Origin: Owenia fusiformis
Lineage: Eukaryota > Annelida > Polychaeta > Sabellida > Oweniidae
Reading direction: 5' to 3'
Assembly: GCA_903813345.2 (NCBI GenBank)
Contig: CAIIXF020000011.1
Span: 27,892,166 to 27,956,165 of the forward strand
Length of the DNA stretch: 64,000 nucleotides
The notes under the pieces are model-generated. The model searched no databases. It worked only from the letters and a program-made list of their open reading frames with translations, and was not told the origin of the DNA. Shown one piece after another: positions 21,201 through 62,951 of the stretch (within the stretch, counting starts at the first letter, position 1; every line of letters begins with the position of its first letter). The translations under genes and the position numbers were made by a program.

Positions 21201-24200
21201 GATATAGTGAAGCCCTCCATCAGTCTGTCCGTCCATCAGTCAGTCAGTATTAATTTTGGTCATTTATATCTGTTCATGGGTTATAGTGAAGCCCTCCATT
21301 AGTCTGTCTGTCCATCAGTCCGTCTGTCTGTCTGTCTGGAAAATAAACACCAGTGGATGGATTTTCTTCATGGCAGACAGACACAGGAACCTGTCGTTGA
21401 AGGAGCCCTTTTTTATGTGCTCCAATACATAGATGTACAAGTACACACCACAGCCTTTTGTACTAGTCATGAACAACTCAGTCAAACCTCCCTAAGTTCT
21501 TTACGCAACAAGCAAATTAATCTTGCCTGAACCAAGAATGGAATCTGGGACCTTATGCGTAATTATAGTAATCTACCATATCTGCTGAAATATGGAATGT
21601 ATACTTGGGTTGATTGTAAAATTACAAAAAAGGTAGGATAAAGAATATGAAAAAGTCGTTTGATCTTGTCCCAGAAGCAATATTTTGTTATTTTTATAGC
21701 CTAGAATTCTCCATAAGTAACTTCATATGTGAATGCTGTGAAAAAATAATCTTTGAATTAAAGAAAATTTGAGCTATGAACAACAAACATATAATGACAT
21801 CAAAGGAGCTTCTTCAATCAATGTTGATATAATATTGAAATTGTATATTAAAAGTAAAATTAAAACTAAATGTTAACATAACAAACCGCATATTTCTTGG
21901 TTGATTATCTCCTCGACAATATCATAGTTTTTTAAACAATTTTCCAGATTTTTCCTTCAGAGTCTTTGTTCACATAATATATGTTTTTGAAACTCAAAAC
22001 TGATCATAATCATAAGTAAAACATTTAAAAATCAAATCAATTGAATATCAAATATGAATTGATAATATAACATTAAATTACTCAATCATGCCAAAATCCA
22101 CTATAGCTCAGCGGTAGAGCGTGTACCAATTATGCATAGGTCCAGGATTCAATCCCGGTTCAGGCACTTAGGGCCACGTCGTGTTAAAAGGCTGTGATGT
22201 GTACATGTATGCCTATGTGTGAGTGCGAGATGAGTTGTCCAGGGGATGAGTTGTCCAAGGGATTGGTTTTCCAGGGGATGAGTTGTCCAGGGGATGAGTT
22301 GTCCAAGGGATTGGTTTTCCAGGGGATGAGTTGTCCAGGGGATGCATTGTCCAACAAATGGGTTGTCCAACGGATGGGTTGTCCAGGGGATGAGTTGTCC
22401 AGGGGAAGAAATGTCTAGGGGATGAGTTGTCAGGTTACCCGTGGTAGATATTGTATTGTGACATATAAAGATTAATGAATATGAGTTTTTTTTGTTGGAA
22501 TTTGCTTCTCCGTGGAATTTCCATTTTCTAGTTCAGATTGCTATCAGGTTATTTTATTGCTTATTTTTACAAAGAAATTCCTACCTTTTTTCTGAGAGCT
22601 TGGGGAAGATATAGGCTTTGGCATGGTTGGTTTCTCTCTGCTCTTCTTTGGGTGTTTAGCTTGTTTGGAACCAGCTGCCTCGTCTTCATCAGACACTGAT
22701 TCTGTCACATACTGTTGGAAACTGGTCTTTAGAGGGATGTAACAGGATTCATCAGTGTTGAGCACTTGTGACCAGTGGACAGATTCAAGGGTATCAAATG
22801 GTGAAGTTCCCTGAGGAAATGTGAAAGCTACTCTGACAGATATGAGAAAGACCTCAATGGTGACAATATCGGCAAACAAAAAATTAATCTCATTTGGGGT
22901 AATTGTGAATGTGTATATGTAATAAACAATGATAAAAGCAACTGCTTTGAACTGCTGGACAAGTATAGTAGCTGGGGACCAGAAATCATAACTGAACCTA
23001 AATGCTTCCTTTCTAAAGTGAGGAAACAAAGCAAACTTGTATGGGAGAAAGCTACCATCGAATTTGTATCCAAATACAACAACAAGGAAGAAAACATTAG
23101 GAACTGTGCACCAAAACATGTCTTTGTATCCTTCAATGAGATCAGAAAACTGTTTCTCTAATTTAAAAGCAGGACTAAAAGCCTGGATAATGAATCTTAG
23201 AAGACTAATTGACACACAAACTTGTATAATTCCAAACAAAACCTGGATATAACTGACAAGTTTCACTGATGAATTCTCAGCAATGTTTTCATATTCTTGA
23301 TAACCTTCTGAATATTCATTGGTGCTGATATGGCTCAGAGTGGAGTAATAGCACAGATAGTGAAGCATAACCAAATGACTGCTACTTATGAAATAAACAT
23401 GGCCGAGTAAATAACTCCGGTATATTTCCTGAAACAACAAGTTGACGATGAATAAGGAAGCACCAACCAAGAAAACCTTCACGTGGAACTCTTGACATTG
23501 AGTCATTAACCCATACAGGACACAGACTAGGAACAAACTAAACAAAAAAGTGTTGATCATTCCCCGGGGGTCAAAGTACATACTCAACGCCTGATTTACA
23601 ATGAATCCCCAAAATACAACTATACAAACAACTAAAATGACCACAGTTCGAACGAGGTATTCTTTTGAGACAACACCTTTATGACGCAACTGGTTTTCTT
23701 TTTTAGCAAGTGACCACATAGCCTTTTTAGTTAAATATATCCCATAACCCACAACAAAGATAATTGATGATTTCACAAACAGGAACTGGCACAAGGTTTC
23801 AAATGTCAATGGAGTTGTACCACCAGTTGCTTGAACGAGGATGGATGGATAATATGATGGTTCTAATGAGTTATCACTTGTCAAGCCCAGGAGCCAGATC
23901 CAGATCTGTGGAAGTCCCACAAAGTTCTCGATTAGTATTGACAAGAAGCGGTAAACACATGACCTTTTTGTTCCTGGATGCGGACAAGGCAGCAATTTTA
24001 GAATTCCCGAGAGTGTCAACAGACTACACAGGACAAATCTTCTGTTTATTTGAACCCATTCCACAATTGGAGAGATGGGGTATCTCCAGATTGGTTCCAG
24101 GAGGGTCCCATCCATATATGCATAGCTAATCCTGGAGAACTGATGCCTTTCTTGTCTCTTTATCCAGAAGCCTAGCACAAGGGCAGTGTAGAAATACACT

Positions 24201-27200
24201 ATGGTTATCCCTCGTAATAATATATGCATATCTAAAGTTTAGCGGAAACTTTTATTTTCTAATAAGATTCTAGTTACTTTGGCAGATTCTTTGACAGTTT
24301 GTTGGCTTTGGTTCTATTCACAGTTTCCCTGTCTGAAAACAAATGAATATATTTTGAGTAAATATGAGTACAGTAAAGGTCAATCTGACCTTGTGGTTGA
24401 AGAAAACTGTGTAACTACAAAGAAAAAATGTTTACTCTTGTTGACATGTATACATACATACATTCGCCACATCAGAATACTGTATAAACAGAAATATATT
24501 AATATGAAAATTGCAATTGAATAATCCTAGGATGCAGAAATGAAACACAAAAAGTCTTGTTTTACTTCGGTTATAACTTTTAAGTAGTGGTTGTTTTCTT
24601 GTAAACTATTGCTTTCAATATACAAATACAGTATGTATATGTTGTTTTCAATTTACAAACATCATACTATTGTGCATACCATATATGCATTTATATATGT
24701 ACTTACTTATAATATTTAGGCCAATTTAGGTTGTAATCTTTCACTGGTAGTGATGTAACTGCACCTAATAGTTGGCATGTTATTCTGAGAAGTGGGAATC
24801 CCCTTTTTGGATGCTTTTTTGTATGAGTCATAAAATATTTACACTCTACTATAACTAACCCCTAGAAATGCATAAGATACTCTGTTTGTCTAATTGTATT
24901 GCTTAGTATATTTTTGAAAGTACCTTATAAAATCTAACAGTCATCCGATAACCATTAATAAGGAACAGAAAAATAAAAACAAATAACATAATCATTAGCC
25001 AAATGGGCTGCTCATGAACACCAAATGCAAGATATAGTAGTGACTTAAGCGTTGCTACAGGGAATTCCCTGTGATGATGCTGAAATAACTACATTGTAAA
25101 GTGGTGCTTCCAAGGGGTCTTTCAAGATAAGGTTCAACAGCATCAAAACCATAAATTATTTGATAGCCTTCAAAATATTATGCATAAGAGCCTATCAATA
25201 TAGTATAGTATAAGGCCCACCAATGATAAGCAATAATTTATTGGGTGTTTCATATTGATCTGGGATTTTTATGATAGTATACCTAGATGATAAACATGAT
25301 TTCTCTAAATCTTAAAATCATAGATGCAATATAAGTTCACCACTGTTTTCTCAATGGAACACTGTATCTGAACAGAAAAAATCACAAAGATTACATCATA
25401 TTTAAGAAAGGTATTTCAAAATTAGAGGGCATTGTTTCTGTGGCACCCTGTATATATACAATATTTGAGCTTTGTAGGAGTTCTTTTTCTCTTTCCAGGG
25501 TAAACATCACACAGCTATCCAGAAGTTCAAAGAAGCAATGCATTGTGATGGCTCTCTTTACATTGCTCTATTGAACCTCTCAGTGCAATACAGGTGCCTA
25601 GGCCTACAAGATCCTGAGCTAGAAATGCTGCATATACTCATTGGTGTAAGTGGTTTCCATATTCTTAACCAGGCCCGAGCCAGGATTTGCCAAGGGGGGG
25701 TTCACTTTTTGAAAAATTCCAGGGGGTTCACTTTTGACAATGTTGGTCCAAAAATGGCTAAAATCACTTAAAATGTGCTCAGAATGGAGAATGGTTAAAA
25801 ACTGCATGATTTTGAAAGAATTTTTGGTTACGGGCCTGTTAACACAAGTGGTTTTGAGATGTTCATTGTTGTCATTGGTTTCTAGATATTCAGTGGTATA
25901 AGTAGTAAATAGATCAATGTAAGTAGTTTCTACATACTCATAAGTGTTAGTGGTGTCTAGGTATTCATCAGTATAAATAGTTTCATGATACTCACCAGTA
26001 TACCTGATAAGTTTCCAATTCACTCATGGCTAGGCAAGGTGTGTCTGATTCCAGCCAATCCAAACAGAGTATTTCTGAGTGACAGCAGTGCATGAAATAA
26101 TCAATAATGCATTTGTTGTGTATGGTTACTAAGGTGATGAGATGTTTTGGTGATGATGTTTTTACTTGACCCTTGCATAAAGTTTCATTGAAAATATGTT
26201 CTTTTATTGATTTTGTATCTTTTAGGTGATTTTATAGAAAATATTTTGTTAAAAGCAAAGATTTAGAAACAACACCTTCATGGTGTGATTAAGCAAACAA
26301 TGCACTGAGTACAAGGCTTAAATCGTTTTATACTCATTACTGTAATTTGTTCCTAGATTATGCAGATAGTAAAATCAGTGGTTTATGTATACTCAGGACT
26401 GTGTTACTGAACTGTATGGTATTATAATGTTACGGTCACCACTGAAAATGGTGACATATAGCAATATAGTTGTAGTCTGCAACTTTTTTGTGAATGGAGT
26501 TTGGCAATCGATGTCTGTTACAAATTCTTATAATTTGCAATAACCACTTGCAGATGGTGACATTTGGTAGTGTTAATGCCTTGTAAATTATTTTATGCTT
26601 TCTTCTTATAAAGGGATTCCTGTTACTCTATGATCTCAATGAAGGGTATTTATAGATGTTTAATCTGATTGCCTCATTTTTAATCCAAACTATAGCTAAT
26701 TCTTCACAAAAGTTTAGTGCAGCATCATTATTTTTATAAATAAATTTATTTTAGTTGTTGGAATCTGATACAGAGATGGCAAAATGGAACACAATGGACT
26801 GCCACACAAATAAAGCATTCATTGAACTAGATGATATCCTACTGGAAAGAGAGGAACTTAGCCCTACTGTAACCCTACCAGAGGTTCTGTACTACATGGC
26901 AAAACAATGCTTGCAGTTGCAAAAGTAAGTATATCAATTCATTCAAAAGTCGATTTATGTATATCATAATGGTTATAATTTGATTGAGATGTTTAACCAT
27001 ATTCCTCTAAAAGTATATTATTCAATATATTAAACCTCCACTGTCTCGCTTTGAGCACATGAATTTAATATGAATGCCTCCATTTTTCATGATCTTGCTG
27101 TTACTTTTTGAACGTGTCACCTGATAACTTGAAAGTCTACCTTCATAGTCTTACCAAGTGGCTATTGATGTAAGTCGTATGCATTATAATGACAATTTGC

Positions 27201-30200: not shown

Positions 30201-31530
30201 CCCTACTACGCATCTACTATACAGTCACTTAAGGGCCATGCATATTTTCTGAAGGGGATAACTCTCTTTAAACTCTCCAAACATCAGGACTCTTTACATT
30301 TCTTCATGATGTCATCTCTCTTCTCACCAGGTAAGTTGATCAGATCACCCTCTCACTCCTTTTATTATGGCACAACCAGAAGTGGTTACATATTATTTTA
30401 GTCTCCAACTTTTTGTGGATGATATATTTGGCAGTTAGTGTTTGGTGGTAAGTGTTCCTAACAAATGGCAGGTGATGACATTTTGCATGTTAATGCCTTG
30501 TTCCACATCTCAGTTTTCATAAGCATTAAAAGGCTCAAATATGTGTGTCCATGAGTCATGGAATTCAAGGATGTCATCAGCAGCAGCCTATTGGCGATTT
30601 TCCTATGGATATTCCTACCAAAATCCCCACTTGTTTCGAGGAGTTATGCAACTATTTCCACATTAAAATTTTGATTTCCATAATTTTGCCTGCTGTTTTC
30701 ATTCATTTTGCCTGTTATCAGAAATGCTAATGAAACTGCTGGAATTGCTTCAATAAACATTTGATCTCCACAAACGTTGGCAGTTAAATCAGTTTGTTAA
30801 ACAGTAAAGGATACAGATCTTGTGATGATTCCTTTATCCTGACCTAATCCAAACACTAAAGACATTGCAGTATAATATTCACATACAGTAAAAACTGTAA
30901 AGAACACTTCTCAGAGACCCAAGACCAACTGACTTGATGTTTAATGAACCTCTATAAGTGGAACACCTCCCTAGGGGAACACTTTTAAGAGGTACCAAAT
31001 GTGTTCCACTTAGACAGATTTAACTGTATCTAATTTTTAACTTTTCCAGATCCTGTAAGAATGTATGCCACATATCACCACAGTGTATGCTTGGCTGCTT
31101 TAGGGAAACCCAGGGTAGGCTATACCAACTGGCGAGATATAAGAGGCCTTAACAACCACAATGTCTATCAGATACAAGAATTAAAGGCTAAACTGAGGTA
31201 TGAAGATGAACATTAAATATGTGTATTGTAAAGAAAATCACATTTTTCTGAAGTAAGGCTATCACTTATCAGTAAATGTAAAATAAAGTGATTTAAAATC
31301 ATTTTGTCTGAAATGCTAATGACAAAATGTTTCAATTTTTGTTATCATTGTGAAGTTTATTCGTATTGGACTTAACTGGATAAAATTGAAGATAATATAA
31401 TTTTTCATGAGTTATGTACCATTATTTTTGCAGCAGGTGCTCAAAGTCCGACCAATCAGGATTGAGTAGAGTAGGCTACTGTACAGAGCTGGAAATGCTA
31501 CAATTAGATGTTGATGCATTAACAAAGTAA
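15296..31530 (+). CDS. FANCG: FANCG-like TPR protein, Fanconi anemia core complex (14 coding exons)
   Basis: Exons: 15296-15365, 15534-15668, 15983-16096, 16530-16651, 17154-17403, 18915-19048, 25499-25645, 26755-26924, 27251-27317, 27691-28220, 29743-29822, 30172-30330, 31050-31197, 31434-31530. All are GT-AG and the phases close, giving 740 aa (human about 622). The identity call rests on colinear TPR helices matching the vertebrate FANCG pattern as I recall it: ALGVCF..GKHHTAIQKFKEA, then YRCLGLQDPELEMLHILI, QCLQLQKYKHAGEQYLKLL, LLLAKDYESCIMICRQAI, SLKGHAYFLKGITLFKL, and HQDSLHFFMMSSLFSPGD. Exon 10 adds a long acidic/serine-rich insert that accounts for much of the extra length. In exon 4 two frames are open; only the EMLKRLVKVG frame joins exon 5 without a stop. 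Exon 3 has an earlier in-phase GT at 16020. FANCG scaffolds FANCA/FANCL core-complex assembly for FANCD2-FANCI ubiquitination. A different TPR scaffold remains possible. Confidence 0.8.
15687..15774. repeat. 88-bp TA-flanked MITE in FANCG intron 2
   Basis: CAGGTTGGGCCATAAAA at the left is mirrored by TTTTATTGGTCCAGCCTG at the right, and TA flanks both sides. It resembles the unit at 39626-39715, a Tc1/mariner-type mini-element. Confidence 0.6.
17404..18914. other. FANCG intron 5, no gene seen
   Basis: AT-rich intronic sequence with short broken frames only. I recognised no transposon ends, RNA gene or conserved coding blocks here. Confidence 0.5.
19170..19315. repeat. short inverted-repeat element in FANCG intron 6
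   Basis: ATTCTCTCTAATGAGCGCA near 19179 is mirrored by TGCACTCATTAGAGAGAAC near 19286, within ACTG...CAGT outer ends. It is a MITE-like unit of about 140 bp. Confidence 0.55.
20050..20450 (+). repeat. pair of about 100-bp direct repeats
   Basis: Two copies begin near 20050 and 20350 with AAAAATACCTCTACCACCAT / AAAGTACCTCTACCACCATT. Both continue through AAACTACATT and CAAAGTGAGAT. They lie downstream of the nested membrane-protein gene. Confidence 0.6.
20718..24229 (-). CDS. unrecognised multi-pass membrane protein, nested antisense in FANCG intron 6
   Basis: Two exons, 24229-22585 and 20989-20718, join G|GC in phase to give 638 aa. The ATG is the first after an in-frame TAA 9 nt upstream. 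About ten to twelve hydrophobic segments are visible, near residues 5-24, 65-82, 95-116, 146-166, 192-214, 226-242, 250-268, 274-296, 322-350, 370-388, 418-441 and 449-471. The C-terminal tail is hydrophilic, with an acidic patch (SVSDEDEAAG), a lysine/proline stretch, a predicted helix (QTQTIEELKQELIRDES) and an acidic end (ETDPSDDSS). I do not recognise the family; it lacks obvious GPCR, transporter or channel motifs. The 1.6-kb uninterrupted first exon with strong codon bias and a spliced acidic tail argue for a real gene, not a shadow. It lies wholly inside one intron of FANCG on the other strand, with its own promoter presumably near 24230-24500. Confidence 0.8.
21011..21330 (+). repeat. 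79-bp tandem repeat, four copies
   Basis: Units start near 21011, 21090, 21169 and 21248, each with TTTTGGTC...CATGGGATATAGTGAAGCC followed by GTCTGTCCGTCCATCAGTC. The GAAGCCCTCCGTCC piece is the 5' end of the dispersed repeat also seen at 61130. The array begins about 20 bp from the acceptor of exon 2 of the membrane-protein gene. Confidence 0.85.
22098..22200 (+). repeat. tRNA-derived SINE
   Basis: The D-arm/A-box TATAGCTCAGCGGTAGAGC is followed by an anticodon-like arm and B-box GGATTCAATCCC. There is no complementary acceptor stem and no U33 equivalent, so it is a SINE head, not a tRNA gene. Confidence 0.65.
22228..22432 (+). repeat. GATGAGTTGTCCAGGG minisatellite (about 15-16 bp units)
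   Basis: About thirteen imperfect copies of a unit like GGATGAGTTGTCCAGG lie immediately after the SINE. The peptides readable on both strands are products of the repeat and are not genes. Confidence 0.9.
25670..25838. repeat. CAGGCCCG hAT-type MITE in FANCG intron 7
   Basis: Left CAGGCCCGAGCCAGGATTTG and right GGTTACGGGCCTG are inverted ends of a family with CAGGCCCGTAGCCAGG termini. A related right end, CTGGCTACGGGCCTG, is at 40952-40968. It sits 25 bp past the exon 7 donor. Confidence 0.6.
25840..26030 (+). repeat. about 30-bp minisatellite resembling the FANCG exon 7 donor edge
   Basis: Units such as TACTCATAAGTGTTAGTGG, TATTCATCAGTATAAATAG and GATACTCACCAGTATACC repeat at about 30 bp. 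They match the exon 7/intron 7 junction (ATACTCATTGGT|GTAAGTGGTTTCC, 25634-25658). The MITE at 25670 separates the seed from the array. Confidence 0.7.
26425..26590 (+). repeat. gtgacat-family mini-element in FANCG intron 7
   Basis: Starts near GGTCACCACTGAAAATGGTGACATA and ends GTGGTGACATTT-like then GTTAATGCCTTG. It shares both ends with the copies at 28270, 30365 and 44926. Confidence 0.6.
28270..28435 (+). repeat. gtgacat-family mini-element in FANCG intron 10
   Basis: GATGTCACCATCAAGAAGTGG, then TGACATATTGTTAAAGTCTCC, a diverged middle, AAGTGGTGACATTTTGCATG and TTGATGCCTTGTT. This is a good full-length short copy of the family. Confidence 0.65.
28476..29481. mobile_element. about 1-kb inverted-repeat element in FANCG intron 10
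   Basis: Left GGTGGTATACGGGGCATA...AACGCAACATGTAG...TCTCG is mirrored by CGAG...CTGTTGCGTT...GATACGCACTGTACACC at the right, giving TIRs of about 45 bp. The interior holds two diverged copies, about 200 bp each, of a block beginning CTTTTGCAATGTTTAAAACTTGG / CTTTTGCGATGTTTATAACTT. No transposase is visible, so it is non-autonomous. Confidence 0.65.
30365..30510 (+). repeat. gtgacat-family mini-element in FANCG intron 12
   Basis: AGAAGTGGTTACATATTATT, AGTCTCCAACTTTTTGTGGA, then AACAAATGGCAGGTGATGAC and ATGTTAATGCCTTGTT. It is slightly decayed compared with the 28270 copy. Confidence 0.6.
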
Positions 31531-31733
31531 CAATGTAATAGACTAACAAAGACACTAGTGAATTTGAGGAAGTAACAGATGAATAACAGAATATGTAAAG
31601 ACACTTTCATAATCACTTGGAAAGAATCTTGACTTTGTACTGTTCTACCTTGGATAGTAAGGCCTGTGTTAGTTCTTAACAGTGTTGGGACTTCAGAAAT
31701 AGAGAGGTTGGATAATGTTTCTGTACTCTTATG

Positions 31734-32850
31734 ATGTTCATCACTCCAATGTATTTCAATGTTAAATGCAATTTCACTGTTTGACATTTTTTGTGTTGAA
31801 TAAAATCACTTATTACACCAATGAATCTCCATGTTAAATTCAAAGTCATTGTTTCTCACACCAATGTATTTCAGTGTTAATTTTAATGTAGTATTTCAGT
31901 TTTAAATACAATGCCATTGTTTCTCACCAATATATTTCAGTGTTAAACATAATGTCACTGTTTCGCACCAATGTATTTCAGTGATAAATTCAATTTAGTA
32001 TTTGTTTCTCACATCAATGTATTTCCGTGTCAAATACAATGTCACTGTTCTCACACTAATGTGATTTCAGTGTTAAATTCAAGGTCATTTTTTCTCACAC
32101 CAAAGTATTTCAGTGTTAATTTCAAGGTCATTGTTTCTCACACCATATATTTCAGTGTTAATTTCAAGGTCATTTTTTCTCACACCAATGTATTTCAGTG
32201 TTAATTTCAAGGTCATTGTTTCTTACACCATATATTTCAGTGTTAAATTCAAGTTCACTGTTTCTCACACCAATGTATGTCAGTGTTAAATTCAATGTAG
32301 TATTTCAGTATTAAATACAATGCCATTGTTTCTCACATCAATGTATTTCAGTGTTAAATACAATTTCACTGTTTCTCACACCAATGTATTTCAGTGTTAA
32401 ATTCAATTTAGTACTTCAGTGTTAAATTCAAGGTCACTGTTTCTCACACCAATGTATTTAAGTGTTAAATTCAATGTAGTATTTCTGTGTTAAATACAAT
32501 GTCAATGTTTCTCACTCTAATGTATTTCAGTGTTAAATACAATTTCACTGTTTTTCACAGCAACATATTTCAGTGTTAAATTCAAGGTCACTGTTTCTCA
32601 CAGCAATGTATTTAAGTGTTAAATTCAATGTCACTGTTTCTCACAGCAATGTATTTCAGTGTTAAATTCAATGTCACTGTTTCTCACACCAATGTATTTA
32701 AGTGTTAAATTCAATGTAGTATTTCTGTGTTAAATACAATGTCAATGTTTCTCACTCTAATGTATTTCAGTGTTAAATTCAATGTAGTATTTCAGTATTA
32801 ATACAAAGTCATTGTTTCTCACACCAATGTATTTCAGTGTTAAATACAAT
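31734..32850. repeat. 43-bp minisatellite derived from the last exon of methyltransferase A
   Basis: About 25 imperfect units of TCACACCAATGTATTTCAGTG + TTAAATTCAATGTCACTGTTTC fill the space between the FANCG stop and the methyltransferase A stop. Some 20-25 bp half-units (AATGTAGTATTTCAGTG) are interspersed. The unit is the plus-strand view of the last codons of copy A (FNTEIHWCEKQ plus stop); the final unit overlaps that coding end (32809-32850). Copy B has only one unit. FANCG's candidate poly(A) signal AATAAA (31799-31804) lies between degenerate outer units. Confidence 0.92.
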
Positions 32851-35800
32851 ATCAACAATGTCTCTGTTCTTTGCCTCTGGATGATTGCTGATCATTTCTC
32901 TGATTGTTCTTTCCACATTTTCCTGTTCTGATTGTTCCAGCTTTGATATATAACTTAGTGATTTCAGGTAGCTCATGATGAAATCTATTGTCCCCTGCAA
33001 AACAAGAATCATACCTTTACATAGCTTTATTTATACTTAACATTGATGTTGAACATCTTCCTAATATTTGAAACTATGAGATGAATGTCCAATGCCTCAG
33101 GGTAATGGCATGAGGTCCACTGAATATCAGCATTTGCATAGACAGACTTATTTGATAAAATTCAATAGTTTACCTAAATCTTGAGCAAAAAATATTTAAA
33201 AATGTGCATCGCCTTTAGCAAAGAGAGTCCAATAGAATTCTTCATAAAATACTTTCACAAAAAAGTACTCACAGAGTGTTTCAAATGTTGAAGAAACACA
33301 TGATCTTCTACAGAGGAAAAACCATGAAAATCCTCAAACACTCCCGCCCAAGCCTTCTTGGATTGATTAGGTGAATCCTTTATTAACGAGTCCTCTATAT
33401 ACTTTGCAATATCGCAAGTGATATCACTGGGTCGAGTTTTATCACGAACATTCCACAGAAAAACTGAAATTAGAGTAAAATATGTTGTAAAACCTTAATT
33501 ATCCCATCGAACGAAGTTCGCTCCGTCCGTTCGTCCGTCTGGGCAATAACTCAAATACCGTTGGCCCGATTTTGTTAATATTTTGTACACATATACTCTA
33601 TGGGGGCAGGGTTCACATTTGGTCTGTGAATACTATAAGCATGGTACACTGTCTAATGACTCTTTTGGTAGAAGGCAACCATTTTGAAAAATGGTCACCA
33701 TTTTAACGTATTTTATTATATCTCGAAAAGTAGTGGAGCGATTTTGTTCATATTTGGTATGTGAATACTATAAGCATGGCACACTGTCTAATGACACTTT
33801 TGGGAGAAGGTGGCCATTTTGAAAAATGGCTGCTATTTTTGCTATATACTTTGAAGTGCCAGCCATGGCTGTACGATGGGATTTGCTATGCTTTGGTGTT
33901 GCTGTTGTCTAGTTGATCCTAAGCTTATTTGAAAATAATTTTGAAAAAGTGTTAGTATTATGTAGGCCCCTTTTTCAATTGATTTAGACATTTCTGTATC
34001 CTAAAACTTTCACAGGTAACAGGATAGGTTCAACTGACTTGTTGAACTTTATAAGATATATTACCTAATCTTCCACGTGGAACCAATACTCTGTGCATTT
34101 CTCTAATTGCCTTTTTGTTTGAAAACCAATGTAAACTTTGGGCGCATATTATATTCTGAAATAAAAATGAAATGTGGAATGAATTAATTTCCAGTAAAGC
34201 TATAGCCTAATATGAATCATTTGAATCATTGTAAAATGTAACTTACCTTGACTGAGCAGTCGGGCAATGGAATAGACTCTGCAGAACACTGTAAAGTTTC
34301 TACATCTGGGGACAGCAGCTTCAATTTCTCTAGGAAATTCTCCAGTGGGTCTGCAGCAAGGATTCTTAAATCCTGAAAATAGTGAAAGAATGCTTCATTA
34401 TTTTGTGAAGTATCTATAATCTAAAAACCTGATTTTGATTGGCCAAAGATCAGTCAATAGTTTGTCCATTATCATGTAACCATCCAATGCTGTTTAGATT
34501 CCCCAAATATGTTGTGGTCAGACATAAACTCGCAAAATGTTACATCAAAAAACTTGTTTTTAAAGAGTATGCTGTATTTACCTTTGTGTCATATTCCAGC
34601 AGCTTTCTAGTAAATATCCCTGTACCTGCACCTAGTTCCAGAATATCATATGCCCCTAAAATGTAGAACATTTATAGAAAACAGGCTGTTAAAAATAATG
34701 TCATCAGTCTCTAAAATATAGAACTCATTGAATACAGGGTGTGCAAGAGAAATGTTATATGCCCCTAAATATAGAGCACTTGTAGAATATAGGCAGTCCA
34801 AGAATTCATTTGTCTCTACAATAGAATTCATTTGTCTCTACAATATAGAATTCTTGTAGAATACAGGATGTCCAAAAATGCACAGTTTGGATACCGCACC
34901 GTGATAAAGGTAGTGCAAAGGTGACTCAAAATATATGATATTCAAGAATAATAGCATATCTCCCTAAAATACAGAACTCTTGGAGAATATAGGGTGTCCA
35001 AGAATAATGTCATATGTAGCTATAATACATGGAAGATTTATAAAATATAGGGTGTCGAAGAAAACCATCATGTCCTTAGAATTTAGAACATTGATACTCA
35101 ATGTGTTTCCAAAATATAGCCTCTGGTCTAGTAGAATACAGAATGTCATAGAAAAAATCATATATCCCTAAAATACTATTGTATTTTACATTTTAGCGTG
35201 TGCTGAGTCCATGATTTTAGTAAGTTCATGTTATACCATTATTTAAGAACTCACGCTCTGTCTCCAAGTTCAGTTTGTTAAGCACAAAGTTGGTTGTTTC
35301 TTCTGTGTAGTCTGGTCTATGACTATTGTATGAGTCCCCCTGAAGTAATAGGTAAATGCATTTATTTAGAGTCCCCATCTCTTACCATATGCTTCCATTC
35401 AATTCATTGAGTTGCAGGTCAAAGGTCGCATGGTAAGCTTATAGAAGGGCTCTCGTCAATCTGTGCAGTGTTCATCCATCTTTCCTTGTCTGTCAACAAT
35501 ATTTGGACAAATGAAAACTGCCATTCATCCTCATATTCATTAATTGTGGTTTCATATGTTTAATAATTATACCTATATTAGGCATCTGTGTTCAGGTTCA
35601 ATTAAAATTCAGTTTTATCTCTACAGCATGATTATTCAGTCAAGGTTAAAAGAATTTATATTCTTAATATTTTAAGTTTCAAGTGACCTCAGTCATGTCA
35701 TTCTATTCAGGAAAATCCTACTGGTCTTCATTAATAGCAAGTCACCCCCCCCCCCCATGGTACATCCATCCTTTACTTCTAAATGTAATAGCCCATTGAA

Positions 35801-35930
35801 TCTAAGTCACCATTCACTTGAAATATATTAAGGTACAGTAAGCTAGGCTAGTACTTGAGTTACTTACTGATTTAAAGCCCTCCACAACATTGGCATGCAG
35901 TATTATTGCATCATTGTTCAATTTTTCCAT
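32809..35930 (-). CDS. class I SAM-dependent methyltransferase, copy A (7 exons)
   Basis: Exons 35930-35868, 35339-35255, 34655-34582, 34372-34247, 34155-34065, 33463-33273 and 32994-32809 are GT-AG and phase-consistent, giving 271 aa. An N-terminal HANVVEGFKSGDSYNSHRPDYT segment leads to SAM-binding motif I (DILELGAGTGIFT, exon 3). An acidic-strand motif (ILAADPLENFLEKLK) and a post-motif QSLHWFSNKKAIREMHRVL with RGRL follow; HWF is typical of the small trans-aconitate/ubiquinone-type methyltransferase families. The C-terminal helix is SYLKSLSYISKLEQSEQ. No signal peptide or membrane segment is seen, so it is probably cytosolic with an unknown small-molecule substrate. Copy B downstream in the window has exactly the same exon lengths (63, 85, 74, 126, 91, 191, 186). 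Its last codons seed the adjacent minisatellite. It converges on FANCG. Confidence 0.93.
33497..33895 (+). repeat. CCGTCCGTTCGTC-family dispersed repeat in methyltransferase A intron 5
   Basis: Opens CCCATCGAACGAAGTTCG and a CCGTCCG run. It continues with ACTCAAATACCGTTGG..CGATTTTGTT and AAAATGG palindromes, and ends GATGGGATTTGCTATGCTTTGGTG. The same architecture occurs at 52880-59135 and 61130-61830. Confidence 0.7.
34640..35200. repeat. intronic minisatellite carrying exon-3 acceptor copies (methyltransferase A)
   Basis: About ten decayed units of roughly 55-60 bp: CATATGYCCCTAAAATATAG, AACTCTTGTAGAATAYAGGG, TGTCCAAGAATAATG. Read on the gene's strand, each unit begins with the exon 3 splice acceptor plus the first exon codons (TTTTAG|GGGCATATG). 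Exon 3 itself is the outermost unit. Confidence 0.8.
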
Positions 35931-35999
35931 TGTTTTATTGAGCAATCAATCCAAACAAGGTTAACACTATCTCTGTACTATAAGAACTTGTCCCTTTGT

Positions 36000-36690
36000 T
36001 CTATTTGCCACTTATCTGCTTATATTATACATTAAGCTATTACTTTTATGAACAGACTTCTATCTTGTCCTATCCATTTAGTTTTAGTTTATTAACAAGT
36101 CATTCATGTGCTTATCTACTTGAGAGTTTATGTACACCATATCAACAAATTGAGATATCAAACTTGCTAAAAACACTTCATGTGGTGCACCAAAATTCAA
36201 TTTGATATAAAACTAATATAAGCTTTGTATGACCTTTAAGAAAATCTTGATTGATATTAGTTTGAGCTTAAAATAATTATTACATCATATCGTGCCCAAA
36301 AATATATGATCCCCTAAATAGTAATACTATATATTGCCATCATTACATTGCTTAAAAGGTAGTGTAGTTCATAATATACAGAAGAACAATTTATTGGTGT
36401 GATTTTAATGAAGTTATTTTTATTGATTAAATCTCTGATTAAATACATATTCTTCTACATCAATAATATGGTATGCATATCAACCGTTAACCATTATGTA
36501 ATATCTGACAATTGTAATGGATTGTGAGCAGATTGTGACATTTGATCTACTGCAACTGTACAGTGGCTGTTGCTTCCCAAAATAGAGAAAAATATGCAGC
36601 ATAAAATATAGGGATAGCAGTACCATTTTGCGGGCTTTGATCTTTAGAGCCTTTTTATTTACTCAATACTTGAGTAGATTTTATGCATAT
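36000..36690. other. intergenic, no gene seen
   Basis: AT-rich sequence upstream of methyltransferase A with no supportable coding region or recognisable repeat. The interval 37163-38417 up to the end of copy B is similar. Confidence 0.5.
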
Positions 36691-37162
36691 TCCAGCCTCC
36701 TAGACTTCCATCAACGTGAACATCAGAACTACATTCCTTGCGCTCAAATCATGATTCTCACGTCGCGAATGTGAAATCTTTTGGTGGGCACCCACCATTT
36801 CCTCGCTCCTGAACATATTTCTTTTGTGTTTCCTGGAGCTTGAAGATGCTGTTACCTTCAATTAGTGGATATTCATTAACATGCATGAAAACTGAGAAAG
36901 TGTTACTTCTGAATTCCTAATAAAAACACTTTGTTGGAATTTAAGTTATGTGTAATGATACAAATAAAATTACAGACTGTGTGGTTCGAAGCACGGATTT
37001 CTGTTCGCGAGTTGAGAAATATGTTCGGGACTGAACAAATGGTGGTGCGCGACTAAAGATTTCTCATTCGCCATGCGCAAATCGTGGTTCGAGTGCAAGG
37101 AACGTACTTCGTGAGGTCATACCTGATGTTTGCATTGTTGGAAGTTTAGGAGGCCTGTATTC
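36691..37162. repeat. fold-back element between the methyltransferase paralogs
   Basis: CAGCCTCCTAGACTTCCATC at the left is mirrored by GAAGTTTAGGAGGCCTG at the right. Inner blocks CATTCCTTGCGCTCAAATCATG and CACCATTTCCTCGCTCCTGAA have complements near 37080-37110 and 37030-37055. A partial relative flanks the composite element at 44898 and 46644-46810. Confidence 0.75.
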
Positions 37163-38417
37163 TATACATTTAATGAATGATGTGACAACTCTTAAGGCAA
37201 AGGTAAATACTAAATATAAATGAAGTATGTGTTTAACATTCAATCACAAATAAGCCCTCCAAACCCACCTTATTTTGTCCATTAACCATGATGTTCATGT
37301 GCTGAATAGCAATGGATTCATTTACAATTTTTTCCCTAATTTACACCTTCTTCGAAGTGAAGTAACAAATTAATATTTGGCTCAAAATATAGAGACATTT
37401 GTAAAACATACCACCCTTTAAGTTTCTAAAAGTAGTGAGTTGAGGAACTAAAATCATATTTTCTGTTGTTTTTATGTTAACTATTTTGCACTCTGTGTAT
37501 GCTCTAACCAAACGTTACCAGCTCCTTTTCACCAAATACTAAAGTGTAACGCCAGTGACGTTCACATGAGTGAAAATGTGAAAAAAGATTAATGATTTTT
37601 CCAGGTGAGAATATTTAAAGGCCCCATGTAAAGTTTAAACCACTTTGGCTTATATTGTAGTCTTACCCAATGTTATCAAAGTGTGATATGTGAAACTTTT
37701 TTTTTTAATTTCAAAAATTGTGAATTTATTTAAAACCAACTTTTAGAGGTCACTCATATCTTCTAATTAGCCACAATTCAAACCAATGCATAGCATACAT
37801 CCTCCCATGTTTTTTGCCAAAAAAATTAAGAAAATCAGTTGATAAACAAGCGAGAAATGAACTTATCAGTGCATGAAAATGGTTCTGAGAAAAATGCATT
37901 TCAAAATTTTAGTTCTCATAGAAACCAATGGTACAATGATATCTAAAACATAATTTATTCTTCCTTTTAACCTGGTTAGACAATCAACATTTGTTTTCTA
38001 TGAAAGTCTAGCATATTTAGAAAAGATTGACATCGAAAAAAAAAATTCAATTTTTTTCAAAAAGTTTTTGTTACCTTAGTGACATCACTAATGTTTCAAA
38101 ATATTTTTGATAAGCTAAAACATTGAAGTGGCCCATTAAATATGACATTTTATTATTGAAATAGTGTGTCTTTTGTTCAATCTTTGCATTGGTGTTAAAA
38201 ATATAATCTTTTTTGAAATGCATTAAGAAATATTTGATGATTATGAAATTTTTTGTTCAAAAATCTCTAAAATCACTTTTTAAGTCCTGACAAATAGTAA
38301 ATGAATGATAAAAAAATATTTTCAAACTTTAGACGGGGACTTTAACACTTTATATTTATTTGCCATTGCCTTGTGTTTTATATGTCTCTGCCTTTATAAT
38401 CTACAATACTTGCTGTG

Positions 38418-41400
38418 TTATAGTTTTTGACACCAATATATTTCAGTGTTAAATAGGATGTCTATTATGCCCCCCTTCTTTGTGTCTGGGTGATTGTTGA
38501 TAATTTCTCTAAACTTGCTTTCCACATTGTCCTGTTCTGATTGCTCCAGCTTTGATATATAACTCAGTGATTTCAGGTAGCTGATGATGAAATCTACAGA
38601 CCCCTGAAAAGTGAAAACTGGAATTGTATATGTGAACAAAAATAATTTCAATATCATCAATATTTATCTATGACAAAGAAGTAATTACACATAGGAGGGG
38701 GTGGGGGTTTTAGTAAGGATTTATATCCAATTGCTTGTTGCAAATTCTAGATATGCAACATATTCATTGAACTTTGTACATTAGAGTCTGGAAATTGGCC
38801 TGAAAAGTTCCTAAATCAATCCAATGTGATCTGCTCCATTCAAGAAATGGACCAAACTCAGAGATCCCGTTATTTCCCAAGGGCAAGAATAAAGCAATCC
38901 GTTATTATGACAAAATTAATATATCATTAGTCATACATTGAGGGAGGGGAGAGGCAAATAAAACGTGTGGGGTTTTCGACACCTGCAATTGGGCAGAAGT
39001 AATATATTCATTTATATTGTAAATTGCTGCATTGGTTCATTCTTTTATTGCATTGTTAAAAGTACAACATGACAAAGAAATCAGTTTCATGACATTTTTA
39101 TAATAGGCCAGTAGAATTTTGATTCCATTTTCATAGAGAATCCATTTATTTCTTATTTCAGTTGAGGTTTCACTCACCGAATGTTTAAAGTGTTGAAGAA
39201 ACCAATGTTCTTGTATGGGCGAAAATCCATTAAAATCTTCGAAAATTCCTATCCATGTTTCCTTTAATTGGGTTGGTGTGTCTTTTATCACGGAGGTCTG
39301 AATGTAATTTGATATATCGTAAGTTATTTTGCTGGCATCAGTTACATCGCGAGTGTTCCAAAGGAAAACTGAAATATCAATAGCATGTTGAAAATGCATT
39401 TAGAAATTGTAACTTGAGTGTATCATTTGTATTTTATGCAATTCTTATGAATACTCGCATCCTTCCAACTGTTAAGGAAAACTGTTCATTCAATAATCTA
39501 AGCGTTTTCAAACAAATAGGCTAGTTCAAGAGATGCTCACAATAGATGCTCACTTTAATTACTTAAACGAAATCTTTAAAAATGGTTAACATATGCACTT
39601 TTAACTCTTCCGTTTACATAACATACAGGGTGGGCCAATAAAAATTGGAATATTTTTCTATTTATTCAATTTTCTTTATTATTGCAGTTCAGTCCACAAA
39701 AATTGGCCCACCCTGTGGTAAGGATTTTTTGATCATCCTGGCACACTAATAAACTATTCATTTGTAAATGCTTATATATTCTAGAACATATAATGCTGAC
39801 ACACATTTGCGCCACAAACTGACAAAGGTCTTGAAGATTCTGCCCACAACTAGAGTAATCATAGATAAAAATAAAAATCATACTTCCAAGGCTGCTCTAT
39901 TTTGTTTCCAAAAAGGTTCCATTTCATAACTTGTATGAATAGTTCCACCACAGTGAGATATATAATATGTTTCGATCTCACTGGTTTCCATGTTATTAGT
40001 TGTGGTTTGTGAACAAGATAAATATTTATTGGACCATTATATCAAACAAGGAATCTTACCTAATCTACCATGTGGTACCATAACTCGATGAATTTCTTTT
40101 AGAGCTGTTTTGTTAGCAAACCAATGAAAACACTGGACACATACTACATTCTGAAATTAAATATAAAACAGAAAGGTGTCAGAAAGAAAGCGTTTACCAT
40201 CCACTTAAAAATGCATGTGATTTTATAATGACTGATAAAATAAACTCAAAGAGATCTCAACATTAACAGAATTCCATTTCCTCAAAAGAAATCCTTGTAA
40301 CTAGACCAAAAAAGCTAAGAATATGGGGGTCCAATAAATATGTCTGATATGTCTAAATCTTAATTGCTCTTTAGCACATTAAAACTAGGCTTCTGGAGCA
40401 ACTCCTCAAGAAGTTTCAGATGACTAGCTTAACTAGATGTACATTCATGCACAAACATTCATACTTTTGAAATTAAGCAGGGATAACATATTTATTTGAC
40501 ACACTGTGCATGTATAAGTTTTACTATTATACATCCCTCTGCTTCCACCAATTGTATTTAACTTTTTAATAAATTGGTTCACCTCTGTTACATTCCATTA
40601 CATTCTGTTCATTCCTCAGAAAGACGGATGAATGGACTAAATCAAACTGACTGGATGAAAAGAGGATTTCACTATATCTTTGTTCATTGGAGTAGTGAGC
40701 CAAGAGATTCAGCAAATTATGAAACTACATACTACATGTTGCCATATGAGAATAAAAATGTCAGAACTCACATTTTTGTGAAAATGGGAAATCAATATTT
40801 GAAAGTTTAGGCATCTGTAACTTCAATACTATCTATCTGTCATTTATGAAATTTTTACATTGTTTTTATCATAAATTTGTGTAAATTCACTAAAAAATTC
40901 ATGAATTTTAAGATTTTCCAAAACAGTTTTTGCCCGAACCCCCGGAACCCCCCCTGGCTACGGGCCTGGGAATATCACAGAAAGAAAGAGGATGATTTAA
41001 ATCGTGGAAATCTGTGAAAATCTCAATTTAATTTCCAAAATGGCACTTGGAACATTATTACTCTCAAACGACGATGTATTACCAGAACATCTCCTCAAGA
41101 GAGACAATCCTCAGATGTAACATACCTTTACAGAGCAGTCGGGTAATGGAATAGACTCTGCAGAACATTGTAAGGTTTCTACATCTGGGGACAGCAGCTT
41201 CAATTTCTCAAGGAAATTCTCCAATGGGTCTGTCGCAATCACTTTTAAATTCTGTAAATACCCAAGACAGCAACATGAGAATCATGTAATAAATGTATAG
41301 CATAGCACCATCTTGAGTTTAACCAAAGCATAAGCAATTATTACGATTGTCCAGGAGAGAAACTTAAGAGACAGTTTATCTTTAACCACTCTATCTTTCA

Positions 41401-44400
41401 TATTCATATTCCTTGAACTATAGCTTGAATATTTAGTTCTCACTTACACTAGTGTCATAGTGAAGAAACCTTCTAGTAAATAGTCCTGTACCAGCACCTA
41501 GTTCTAGAACATCATATGTCCCTAAAATGTAGAACTCCTGTAGAATACAGGGTGTCCAAGAGTAACATCATATGTCCCTAAAATATAGAACTCTTCTAAA
41601 ATACATGATGCTTAAAAATAATACTACACCTCCCAAATACAAAGAAAATAATGTCACAGGTCCCTAAAATATAGTTATCTTATGGTAAACAGGGTGTGCA
41701 AGTCATCTCACAAATCTGATAATATGAAAAAAACTCTTGTATAACACAAGGGTATCCAAGAATAATCCAGTTTGTCCAAAAAATGTCATATGTCCCTCAA
41801 ATATAGAACTCTTGTAGTAAAACAGGGTGTCCAAGAATTATGTCAGAAGTACCTGGAAAAGGAATTCTTGTTAAATTCAGCATATCCAAGAATAATATCA
41901 AGTCCCTAAATTATATGATTCTTGTAGAATATAGGGTTTCAAGGAAAATGTCACAAGCTAACTAAAATTTTAGGTAGAACTCCTGTAGAATACAGGGTAT
42001 ACAATTATCAAATGTCCCTAAAATATACAAGTTTTGGAAAATACACTGTGTCCAAGAATAATGCCATACTTTGTAATCCCTAAAATAAAGAATTCTTGGA
42101 GAATACAAGGTGTCCAAGAATAATACTCACTATGTTCTAAAATATAGAATTCTTAGAGTATACAAGGTCATAAAATATGGAACCCTTATAGACAACAAGC
42201 ATGGTGTCCAAGAATTATATAACTTGTTGAATGCAGGGTGTCCAAAAAATGTTATACGAGGGGTGATCCAAAAGTCTTGGACGCCCCGCTCTAACTTTGC
42301 TATTTTCTAATATAATTGCACGATCATTGCACGATAATAAAGATCAACATCTTAACAACTTTGTGTATAAGTTTCAACAGAAAATAATATATTTTAGCTT
42401 TTTGGTAAAGATTTTTTAATACTGGGTCCCTGCCACCCGGAACGGTATTTAAATATAGCAAATCACGTCACAACTGTTATAAAATGGCAAATACCTTAGG
42501 TGCGGGTGTACAATCTAACACCAGTCATTATATGAGAGAATTTTCGATTTTCAATCTGAGTGTCAACTGCCATCATCATCTTCACATATTAAGACCTACT
42601 TTTCAACATTTTTTCCACGAATTTGAACCCATCTTTCATACCGCTTTACCAATGAATGGAAGACATTTATGAAACCGCCATTCCTTATGTGATACAAATG
42701 CTGCTGGAGTGCCACTCTAAACCTCATCCAACGAGTAAAAAAATATTTTCTTTCAACCCTCCTTTCAACTTTGAGAAAATGAAGAAAATCACACGGAGCC
42801 ATATCTAGACTGTATTGTACATATGGTAGCTGCTAAAGGTCAATAATAGTGAAAATATCTTGTAGTATTCTTTGTTCCACTTTGATTTCTTTCATGATCT
42901 GCATTTCAGCAGCCATTTTGGAGCAAAAATGATACCAGAATGAGGGTTGCTTGTCTGATGTCACTTTCTTAGAACTTGACATATATGATCATTGTCATAT
43001 GTGACATTATAATGAAAACACAATTAATTGGTTGCCTAATAAGAAAGGAAGTAAACTAACATGGTTTAACATTCACAATTCAAAGAAAGACAGTGGTCAA
43101 GACTTGCGAAACAAGTCAAATGTCAGCAACATTTAAGGCTGAACGTTGTCATGTGTGAATACCGTTCCGGGTGGCAGGGTCCCCATCTTAAAAACTGTCT
43201 AGAAAACTACATAAAAGATATCATTTCTCCATGAAATAAATACACAAAGTAGTTAGGTTGTTGGTCTTTATAATTGGAAAGTTTAAAGTGATTTTATTAA
43301 AAACCAACAAAATAAGAGCAGGGCGTCCAAGACTTTTGGATCACCCCTCGTATGTCCCTAAAATATAGAACTTTTACAGGGTGTCCAAAAATAATGTCAG
43401 AAGTCACTAAAATACAGAAACATTGTAAAATGCAGGATTCCCAATAAATCATAGCCCCTGAAATATATACAGAATATATGTAGAATATATCTACTCATAC
43501 TCAATATTAAACATCATATGCCTTTAAACACAAACATATTTACTTTTATGTTATTTAATAAATATGGAGACACATATAGACACACTTTGCTATAATTATT
43601 TAAAATGATTTTAGTAGGTTTTCAATTGAGATATAGCATAAAGCTCACCTTCAGTTTCCAAGTTCAGTTTGTTGAGCACAAATTTGGTTGTTTCTTCTGT
43701 ATAGTCTGGTCTATGATTGTTATAGGAGTCCCCCTATTAAAATATTGAGTACAACATAAAGTTTGTTTCTTGCATTGATTTTAACTTTTATTTGAAAAAT
43801 GGTAGAAAATTTGAATATTTGAGGAATAAAAAGCTGACAAGTTTTTTCCCCAAAATGTTTTTTCAGAAATCTCTAAAATAACTTTTAAAGTCACAAAAAA
43901 TAGTAAATGAATGATCAAAACATATTTTTTAACTTTACCTGGGGTCTTTAACAATTTTATCATCTCTGAATTATAAAGCACTTAAATTAGAATTTACAAC
44001 CCAGTTAACTGACACATGGCAAGTTATTAACCAATTCATTTCTCACCATCTGGTACTGATAAGGGTGGATACTGGATACCGCATCATCACATCTACATTC
44101 TACATTATAGATGGTAGCATTATTTAAGAAACAACACATTAAAATGACATTGACATTCTGTTGCCCAAATTTCAGTTGAATAATCATAGCTGTCAGTGAT
44201 TTCTACAATTTTTCAAGATGACATCCCTGAATTGAGAATGACAGTCCCATACTATATGGCTTATCAGTCTGGGAAAATCTTAAAGTAATGCATGGGCTTT
44301 CAAGCTCTCTTGAAAGCAATGATAATTCTTGACTAAATAGATCTATAGATATAGGCCATGTTTACAGTACCACTGTAGTGGCTAGCCCTTATGGCTTATG

Positions 44401-51521: not shown

Positions 51522-62951
<11,430 letters not shown>

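Follow-up and report, generated by a model that had tools for sequence, protein, structure and literature searches.

The tandem array that lies behind a methyltransferase gene of Owenia fusiformis (gene A) is very probably a minisatellite born from the 3' end of that gene's own coding sequence, on the A lineage and after the split between A and its paralogue B. The array occupies positions 31734-32850 of the window, as we call the whole 64,000-nucleotide stretch of DNA that was analysed. It runs on the minus strand, which is the sense of the gene, and its start lies inside the last exon of A. Direct support for this origin comes from the anatomy of the array, the age of the coding tail that it repeats, the A-likeness of its units, the lack of coding constraint on them and the block duplications among them. 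The models of genes A and B cover the six recognised exons of each, those of A from 35339 downstream. The genes, the units at their ends and the array are placed as follows.

32809-35339, minus strand: gene A, six exons (35339-35255, 34655-34582, 34372-34247, 34155-34065, 33463-33273, 32994-32809), from reading frames and colinearity with B; Methyltransf_11 at E 5.5e-16.
32809-32994, minus strand: last coding exon (exon 6) of A, 186 bp, with its stop codon TGA at 32811-32809, from the frame, a CAG acceptor and colinearity with B.
32808-32850, minus strand: founder or terminal unit at the end of the exon, IVFNTEIHWCEKQ plus the stop TGA plus C, 43 bp, from sequence and alignment.
31734-32807, minus strand: non-coding array of 19 long and 6 short units, with degenerate pieces distally (about 31716-31844), from Tandem Repeats Finder and wrap-around alignment.
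38418-43733, minus strand: paralogue B, six exons (43733-43649, 41521-41448, 41251-41126, 40150-40060, 39368-39178, 38603-38418), from its match to A; Methyltransf_11 at E 4.3e-16.
38459-38417, minus strand: single unit of B, from its match to A's exon unit.

Both genes match the class I SAM-dependent methyltransferases (PF08241), for which near-full-length bacterial homologues exist; gene A scores 59.4 bits with Methyltransf_11 against a Pfam gathering score of 21.2. Exon lengths are equal in A and B (85, 74, 126, 91, 191 and 186 bp), the internal exon edges of gene A carry AG acceptors and GT donors, and the two proteins are 72% identical over 250 residues. A literature search on the family name DDB_G0268948 returned nothing useful. 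Compared with other class I SAM-dependent methyltransferases, nothing unusual was noticed in the protein; the odd feature is the array behind gene A. Over the joined exons, dS between A and B is 0.66 and dN is 0.16, and over the few sites of the last 13 codons these values are 0.35 and 0.14. Synonymous divergence is uneven along the genes: dS is 0.35-0.42 for exons 2, 3 and 6, rises to 0.64 for exon 1, and reaches 1.1 for exon 4 and 2.1 for exon 5. Residues 61-96 form a run of 36 identical positions, and gene conversion tracts may be present.

Parsing of the array into units was based on wrap-around dynamic programming alignment of the minus strand to the exon-terminal 43-mer. This 43-bp unit consists of 13 codons, the stop and one further nucleotide (IVFNTEIHWCEKQ*), and in the exon of A it reads ATT GTA TTT AAC ACT GAA ATA CAT TGG TGT GAG AAA CAA TGA C. 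By this alignment the array extends from 32850 down to about 31716 and is degenerate distal of 31844. With pieces starting distal of 31840 left out, it resolves into 28 pieces in the order LsLsLLLLLsLsLLsLLLLLLLsLLsLs: 20 long units (L; 37-43 bp), 6 short units (24-25 bp), each missing an identical 18-bp stretch, and 2 further truncated pieces. Among the 20 long units, the first (32850-32808) coincides with the exon end, the two forming a single continuous sequence with no break. Tandem Repeats Finder returned overlapping rows across 31866-32850, with periods that include 43, 25, 68, 85 and 111. Head-to-tail tandem units of 43 and 25 bp fall within the range of roughly 10-100 bp that characterizes minisatellites. 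An earlier note on this DNA had counted about 25 tandem units of 43 bp. The count agrees with our parse, but two unit lengths are present. Its further description of a 43-bp unit that encodes the gene's final residues and stop, and that merges seamlessly into the exon, is confirmed by alignment of the units to the exon.

Such a seamless merge could also arise in the opposite direction, if a pre-existing satellite had supplied the coding end and the last codons of A derived from the array by exonisation. The exon unit is 41/43 identical to the internal unit at 32364, which suits that direction as well. Against it, the last exons of A and B are both 186 bp long, with an equal tail and the stop in an identical column, and bacterial homologues end there too or close by. 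A tblastn search of 72,556 plasmid records with protein A matched 138 records, 10 of them covering at least 80% of the query, and 7 of those 10 (Cupriavidus 3, Azospirillum 2, Caballeronia 1, Embleya 1) were used to compare C-termini. In a MAFFT alignment with A and B, six of the seven homologues end in the A/B column and the seventh two residues later (an example pair of C-termini is VSFPYSTEAYCCERH-stop versus VDIVFNTEIHWCEKQ-stop), and all nine sequences, the 7 bacterial ones plus A and B, retain the Thr of the NTE motif. The tblastn alignment of the seven extends to residue 249 in 4, to 242 in 2 and to 229 in 1, and the remaining C-terminal alignment is MAFFT's. A prokaryote genome collection searched with protein A gave 131 stretches that fit a pattern and 0 confirmed relatives. 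Since A and B share an end column and the bacterial homologues end in or near it, the array is far younger than the coding tail, which presumably forms the final beta strand in the methyltransferase fold. The direction from exon to array is thus well supported by these sequence comparisons, in agreement with the earlier note, which had the final stretch of the last coding exon give rise to the array, and we find exonisation barely credible.

The units also carry the signature of one paralogue. Seven sites of the unit differ between A and B, and across 27 array pieces these sites are A-like in 145 of 153 cells, B-like in 5 and in another state in 3, which assigns the array to the A lineage. The unit consensus differs from A at 2/43 sites and from B at 9/43, and mean identity to the 18 long units that measure 41 bp or more is 0.91 for A's exon unit and 0.76 for B's unit. 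At the equivalent site, paralogue B holds a single unit that is 36/43 identical to A's exon unit. Both the single unit in B and an amplification that followed, or was specific to, copy A had been proposed beforehand, and the comparison bears them out; as judged from one genome, amplification occurred on the A lineage, with a past loss of the array from B as a less likely alternative.

We searched the 64 kb on both strands for further copies of the unit. Outside 31600-32880, the best ungapped match is B's exon end (36/43). The next best, at 27/43, is the other strand of B's exon end, and the best of 50 shuffled units reached 28. No third copy of the 43-bp unit was found on either strand of the 64-kb window, and no better-matching satellite, from which the exon end might itself have come, lies within the 64 kb beyond B's exon end. 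These results bear on the idea that a mobile element, Helentron/Pearl-like or of another kind, captured the exon end and carries the array as its central repeat. According to the available part of one survey (PMC7492417), bivalves commonly harbor such elements with tandem repeats inside them, but here the unit is absent elsewhere in the 64 kb except at paralogue B's exon end, and the array starts within a genuine exon with no element flank between, rather than being bounded by an element on both sides. Monomer size is weak evidence on this reading, since the screen described in the available text of PMC7492417 took in only monomers of 100-500 bp. A captured exon end is, in our judgment, very improbable.

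There is no sign of coding in the array units. Among the 13 gap-free long units (of 18), codon changes from the consensus are non-synonymous in 28 cases and synonymous in 3. Early stops or lost frames affect 11 of the 18 long units, and changes at the three codon positions of the 18 number 24, 10 and 18, of about 250 each. Between genes A and B, in contrast, dS exceeds dN. A unit length of 43, which is not a multiple of 3, had already led the earlier note to reject a coding expansion; the stop within the founder unit and the 28 versus 3 changes support this, and they set the array apart from coding tandem repeats, whose units are read in frame with synonymous changes in excess.

Instead of coding constraint, the array shows internal turnover, most clearly in the following blocks.

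32651-32783, minus strand: 133-bp block, 130/133 identical to a copy 240 bp further on, a recent internal block duplication.
32411-32543, minus strand: second copy of the 133-bp block (130/133 identity).
32264-32368, minus strand: internal long-short-long block, which matches the exon end and the first units after the stop (32751-32854) at 92.4% identity over 105 bp.

Blocks recur further within the array at offsets of 43, 85, 179 and 308. The 92.4% identity over 105 bp indicates that the exon unit shared longer blocks with the interior of the array. Among themselves, the 18 long units that are 41 bp or longer have a mean identity of 0.88, and the array is therefore not a stutter of one unit. 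The same divergence is relevant to the concern that the repeat was expanded or collapsed in assembly. Tandem arrays are often mis-assembled, as is generally known, but long units that have diverged to a mean pairwise identity of 88% and that are ordered in mixed blocks argue against an artefact, which we regard as extremely unlikely. The copy number of the array could be off, for example by way of the block repeated at 130/133.

Most likely, then, the array is a neutral minisatellite behind A that was seeded at the stop codon. Its neutrality and the molecular process that follows are what we infer from the sequence. A 43-bp stretch, made up of the last 13 codons, the stop and one further base, would have been duplicated in tandem at the stop codon. 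Because every copy carries a stop, such a duplication would have been tolerated: the first copy in the reading direction would keep frame and stop and still encode the C-terminus, and later copies would fall outside the reading frame and be free to multiply by slippage or unequal exchange. Copies in the array would then have lost 18 bp to give the short unit, built mixed 43/25 blocks, duplicated as blocks and drifted, with the exon copy held by selection on the protein. The flank that A had before amplification is gone; when A's original 3' flank was sought in the 3' flank of B by blastn (31001-37500 versus 37501-64000, E 1e-3), there was no match.

Hairpin-driven amplification was considered as a route and found no support, as a lone long unit folds no better as DNA than its shuffles. 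In the gene sense of A, DNA folding z scores are -0.68 for the exon unit, -0.23 for the consensus and -1.39, -0.17 and -0.15 for the units at 32364, 32475 and 32211; the reverse complement of the exon unit scores -1.09, the 25-nt short unit -2.35 and B's unit 0.13. Folded as RNA, without a control, the exon unit reaches -9.1 kcal/mol and B's unit -4.7 kcal/mol. The RNA of 31954-32850 has a z of -5.47 versus 20 dinucleotide shuffles, but shuffling destroys the repeats, and for this reason we do not build on the folding of the array RNA. With 30 mononucleotide shuffles, a 900-nt stretch gave z of -2.2 in the A sense and -0.3 in the other sense.

The position of the array directly behind the stop raises the matter of how the transcript of A ends. 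Read in the A sense from the stop (32809) down to 31361, there is no AATAAA and one ATTAAA, at 31887. In B, an AATAAA begins at 38360, 58 nt behind the stop. On the plus strand, AATAAA occurs at 31282 and, inside the array, at 31799. The earlier note had placed the poly(A) signals of both genes in or near the array. This claim found no support for A, where the A sense offers only the ATTAAA and no AATAAA. Given that no AATAAA precedes 31361 in the A sense, we infer that the array probably lies within the 3' UTR of A; alternatively, it plausibly displaced A's old signal.

Across 31734-32850 the A sense contains 14 AATACA, 3 AATATA, 1 ATTAAA, 0 AATAAA and 10 GTGTGAG, and AATACA is found in 13 of the 20 long units of the wrap-around parse. 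One could propose from these motifs that the array has been kept for the 3'-end formation of A, as a ladder of weak poly(A) sites replacing AATAAA. Many long units do carry AATACA followed by a GU-rich stretch, and A is without AATAAA from the stop to 31361 where B has one at 38360. However, AATACA is a weak variant of the poly(A) signal, and its presence is dictated by the founder codons for Glu-Ile-His. Furthermore, AATACATTGGTGTG is intact in only 6 places, and the short units are without the GU-rich part. Retention of the array as a ladder of this kind is quite unlikely, and we continue to favor a neutral minisatellite.

On the plus strand, the sense of the convergent gene, 31734-32850 contains 18 TTTCAG, which resemble splice acceptors. 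This convergent neighbor, called FANCG in the earlier note, was represented by a rough, incomplete exon set. Its Pfam matches, to ANAPC3/TPR, were weak and sub-threshold, PDB yielded none, and the name FANCG was not confirmed by them.

Several other repeats occur in the window. A repeat at 33611-33840, in the intron that separates exon 4 of A from exon 5, recurs at about 76-86% identity in tandem arrays at 53225-53620 and 58495-58913, and further large tandem arrays are located at 45060-46421 (periods of about 125-409 bp) and 57562-58435 (162 bp). An open frame of 564 residues (22544-24238, minus strand), without a Pfam match at E 0.01, is followed after about 110 bp by a 16-bp tandem array of 12.7 copies (22229-22431). 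Scans of the window gave 0 Rfam matches and 0 tRNA genes.

A second, older set of repeats touches an exon edge in both paralogues and was located by profile search.

34641-35090, minus strand: decayed tandem repeats in intron 1 of A, closing at 34677-34641 with a unit made up of the exon-2 splice acceptor and the opening 15 nt of exon 2.
41507-43427, minus strand: decayed units of the same family in intron 1 of B, likewise closing, at 41543-41507, with the exon-2 acceptor and the opening 15 nt of exon 2.

These repeats, with the pattern TTCTAYATTTTAG|GGACATATGAY, follow a 52-bp profile and have decayed to about 73% identity, and neighboring units are mostly 50-65 bp apart. All 26 profile matches (E 1 or better) are on the minus strand, in intron 1 of A or B or where exon 2 begins; blastn with the edges gave one extra weak match of 30 bp, on the other strand at 34132-34161. 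Among 19 program-aligned units of the 20 profile matches at E 0.05, mean identity is 0.735 within B (66 pairs), 0.727 within A (21) and 0.731 between the two (84). Equal identities within and between A and B suggest, at the level of sequence, that the intron-1 array is older than the separation of A and B and has since undergone decay alone. In A, the portion of exon 2 that is repeated encodes A-Y-D-I, and the 7 bacterial homologues have a two-residue gap there, so the start of exon 2 may have come from the array instead of having given rise to it. The motif TTTTAGGG, a possible decoy acceptor, is present twice in intron 1 of A and five times in that of B.

We scanned all 24 edges of the 12 exons of A and B, as 40-mers, for copies within 2.5 kb, with 200 random positions for comparison. 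The 3' edge of A exon 6 ranks first (best 32/40, 12 copies at 28 or more), followed by the 5' edge of B exon 2 (30/40, one copy at 28 or more) and the 5' edge of A exon 2 (26/40); the remaining 21 edges score 20-24. Two of the 24 edges thus reach at least 28, which is no general excess at exon edges, since 6% of the random positions also do so. The 12 copies at A exon 6 stand out, with at least three copies found at 1.5% of random positions, and the scores of the exon-2 edges are explained by the decayed intron-1 repeats found by profile search.

It is a doubtful proposition that exon edges twice became the terminal, selected unit of an array, earlier the exon-2 acceptor and start in the A/B ancestor and then the end of exon 6 in A. 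If it were true, a functional coding or splicing edge would be left anchored at the end of a drifting array, the drifting array would offer many decoy 3'-end or splice signals, and the exon-2 array may have moved the start of that exon. An exon-2-edge array in both paralogues raises the question of whether the exon-6 array is a single accident, although the scan of edges gave no general excess.

The array behind A can be compared with systems described previously. The available text of PMC3389668 credits Haber and Louis with the view that minisatellites originate by slippage between short direct repeats. An origin by slippage or by unequal crossing-over, with direct repeats of 5-10 bp, is described, and slippage, conversion or unequal crossing-over make up the model of expansion, in the portions available of PMC3389668 and PMC6947457. 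Oyster Helentrons carry satDNA-like short tandem arrays, some in or near genes, as far as the accessible part of PMC7492417 describes them, and the array here is like them in being a short tandem array in or near a gene. In that same text, however, the oyster repeats are dispersed and flanked by element sequence, with monomers mostly of 140-180 bp within a screen of 100-500 bp, whereas the array here is continuous with an exon and its unit occurs at no third place in the 64 kb. In the open-licence literature searched, as far as those texts were available, no array derived from the coding end of a gene came to light, which is not proof of absence.

In its imperfect units of tens of bp, its block duplications and its degenerate far end, the array resembles minisatellites and VNTRs, including those of the 3' UTR or 3' flank. 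For most minisatellites the founder sequence is not known. Here the founder is identified and still functional as the coding end of a gene, the paralogue B has one copy of it, and bacterial homologues fix the ancestral end. The birth of a minisatellite, and the interplay of selection on its terminal unit with turnover, are therefore open to direct comparison in sister species. The minisatellites treated in the available text of PMC3389668 and PMC6947457 have sources in transposable elements or in sequences flanked by direct repeats; in contrast, the founder behind gene A is a functional coding end that includes its stop codon.
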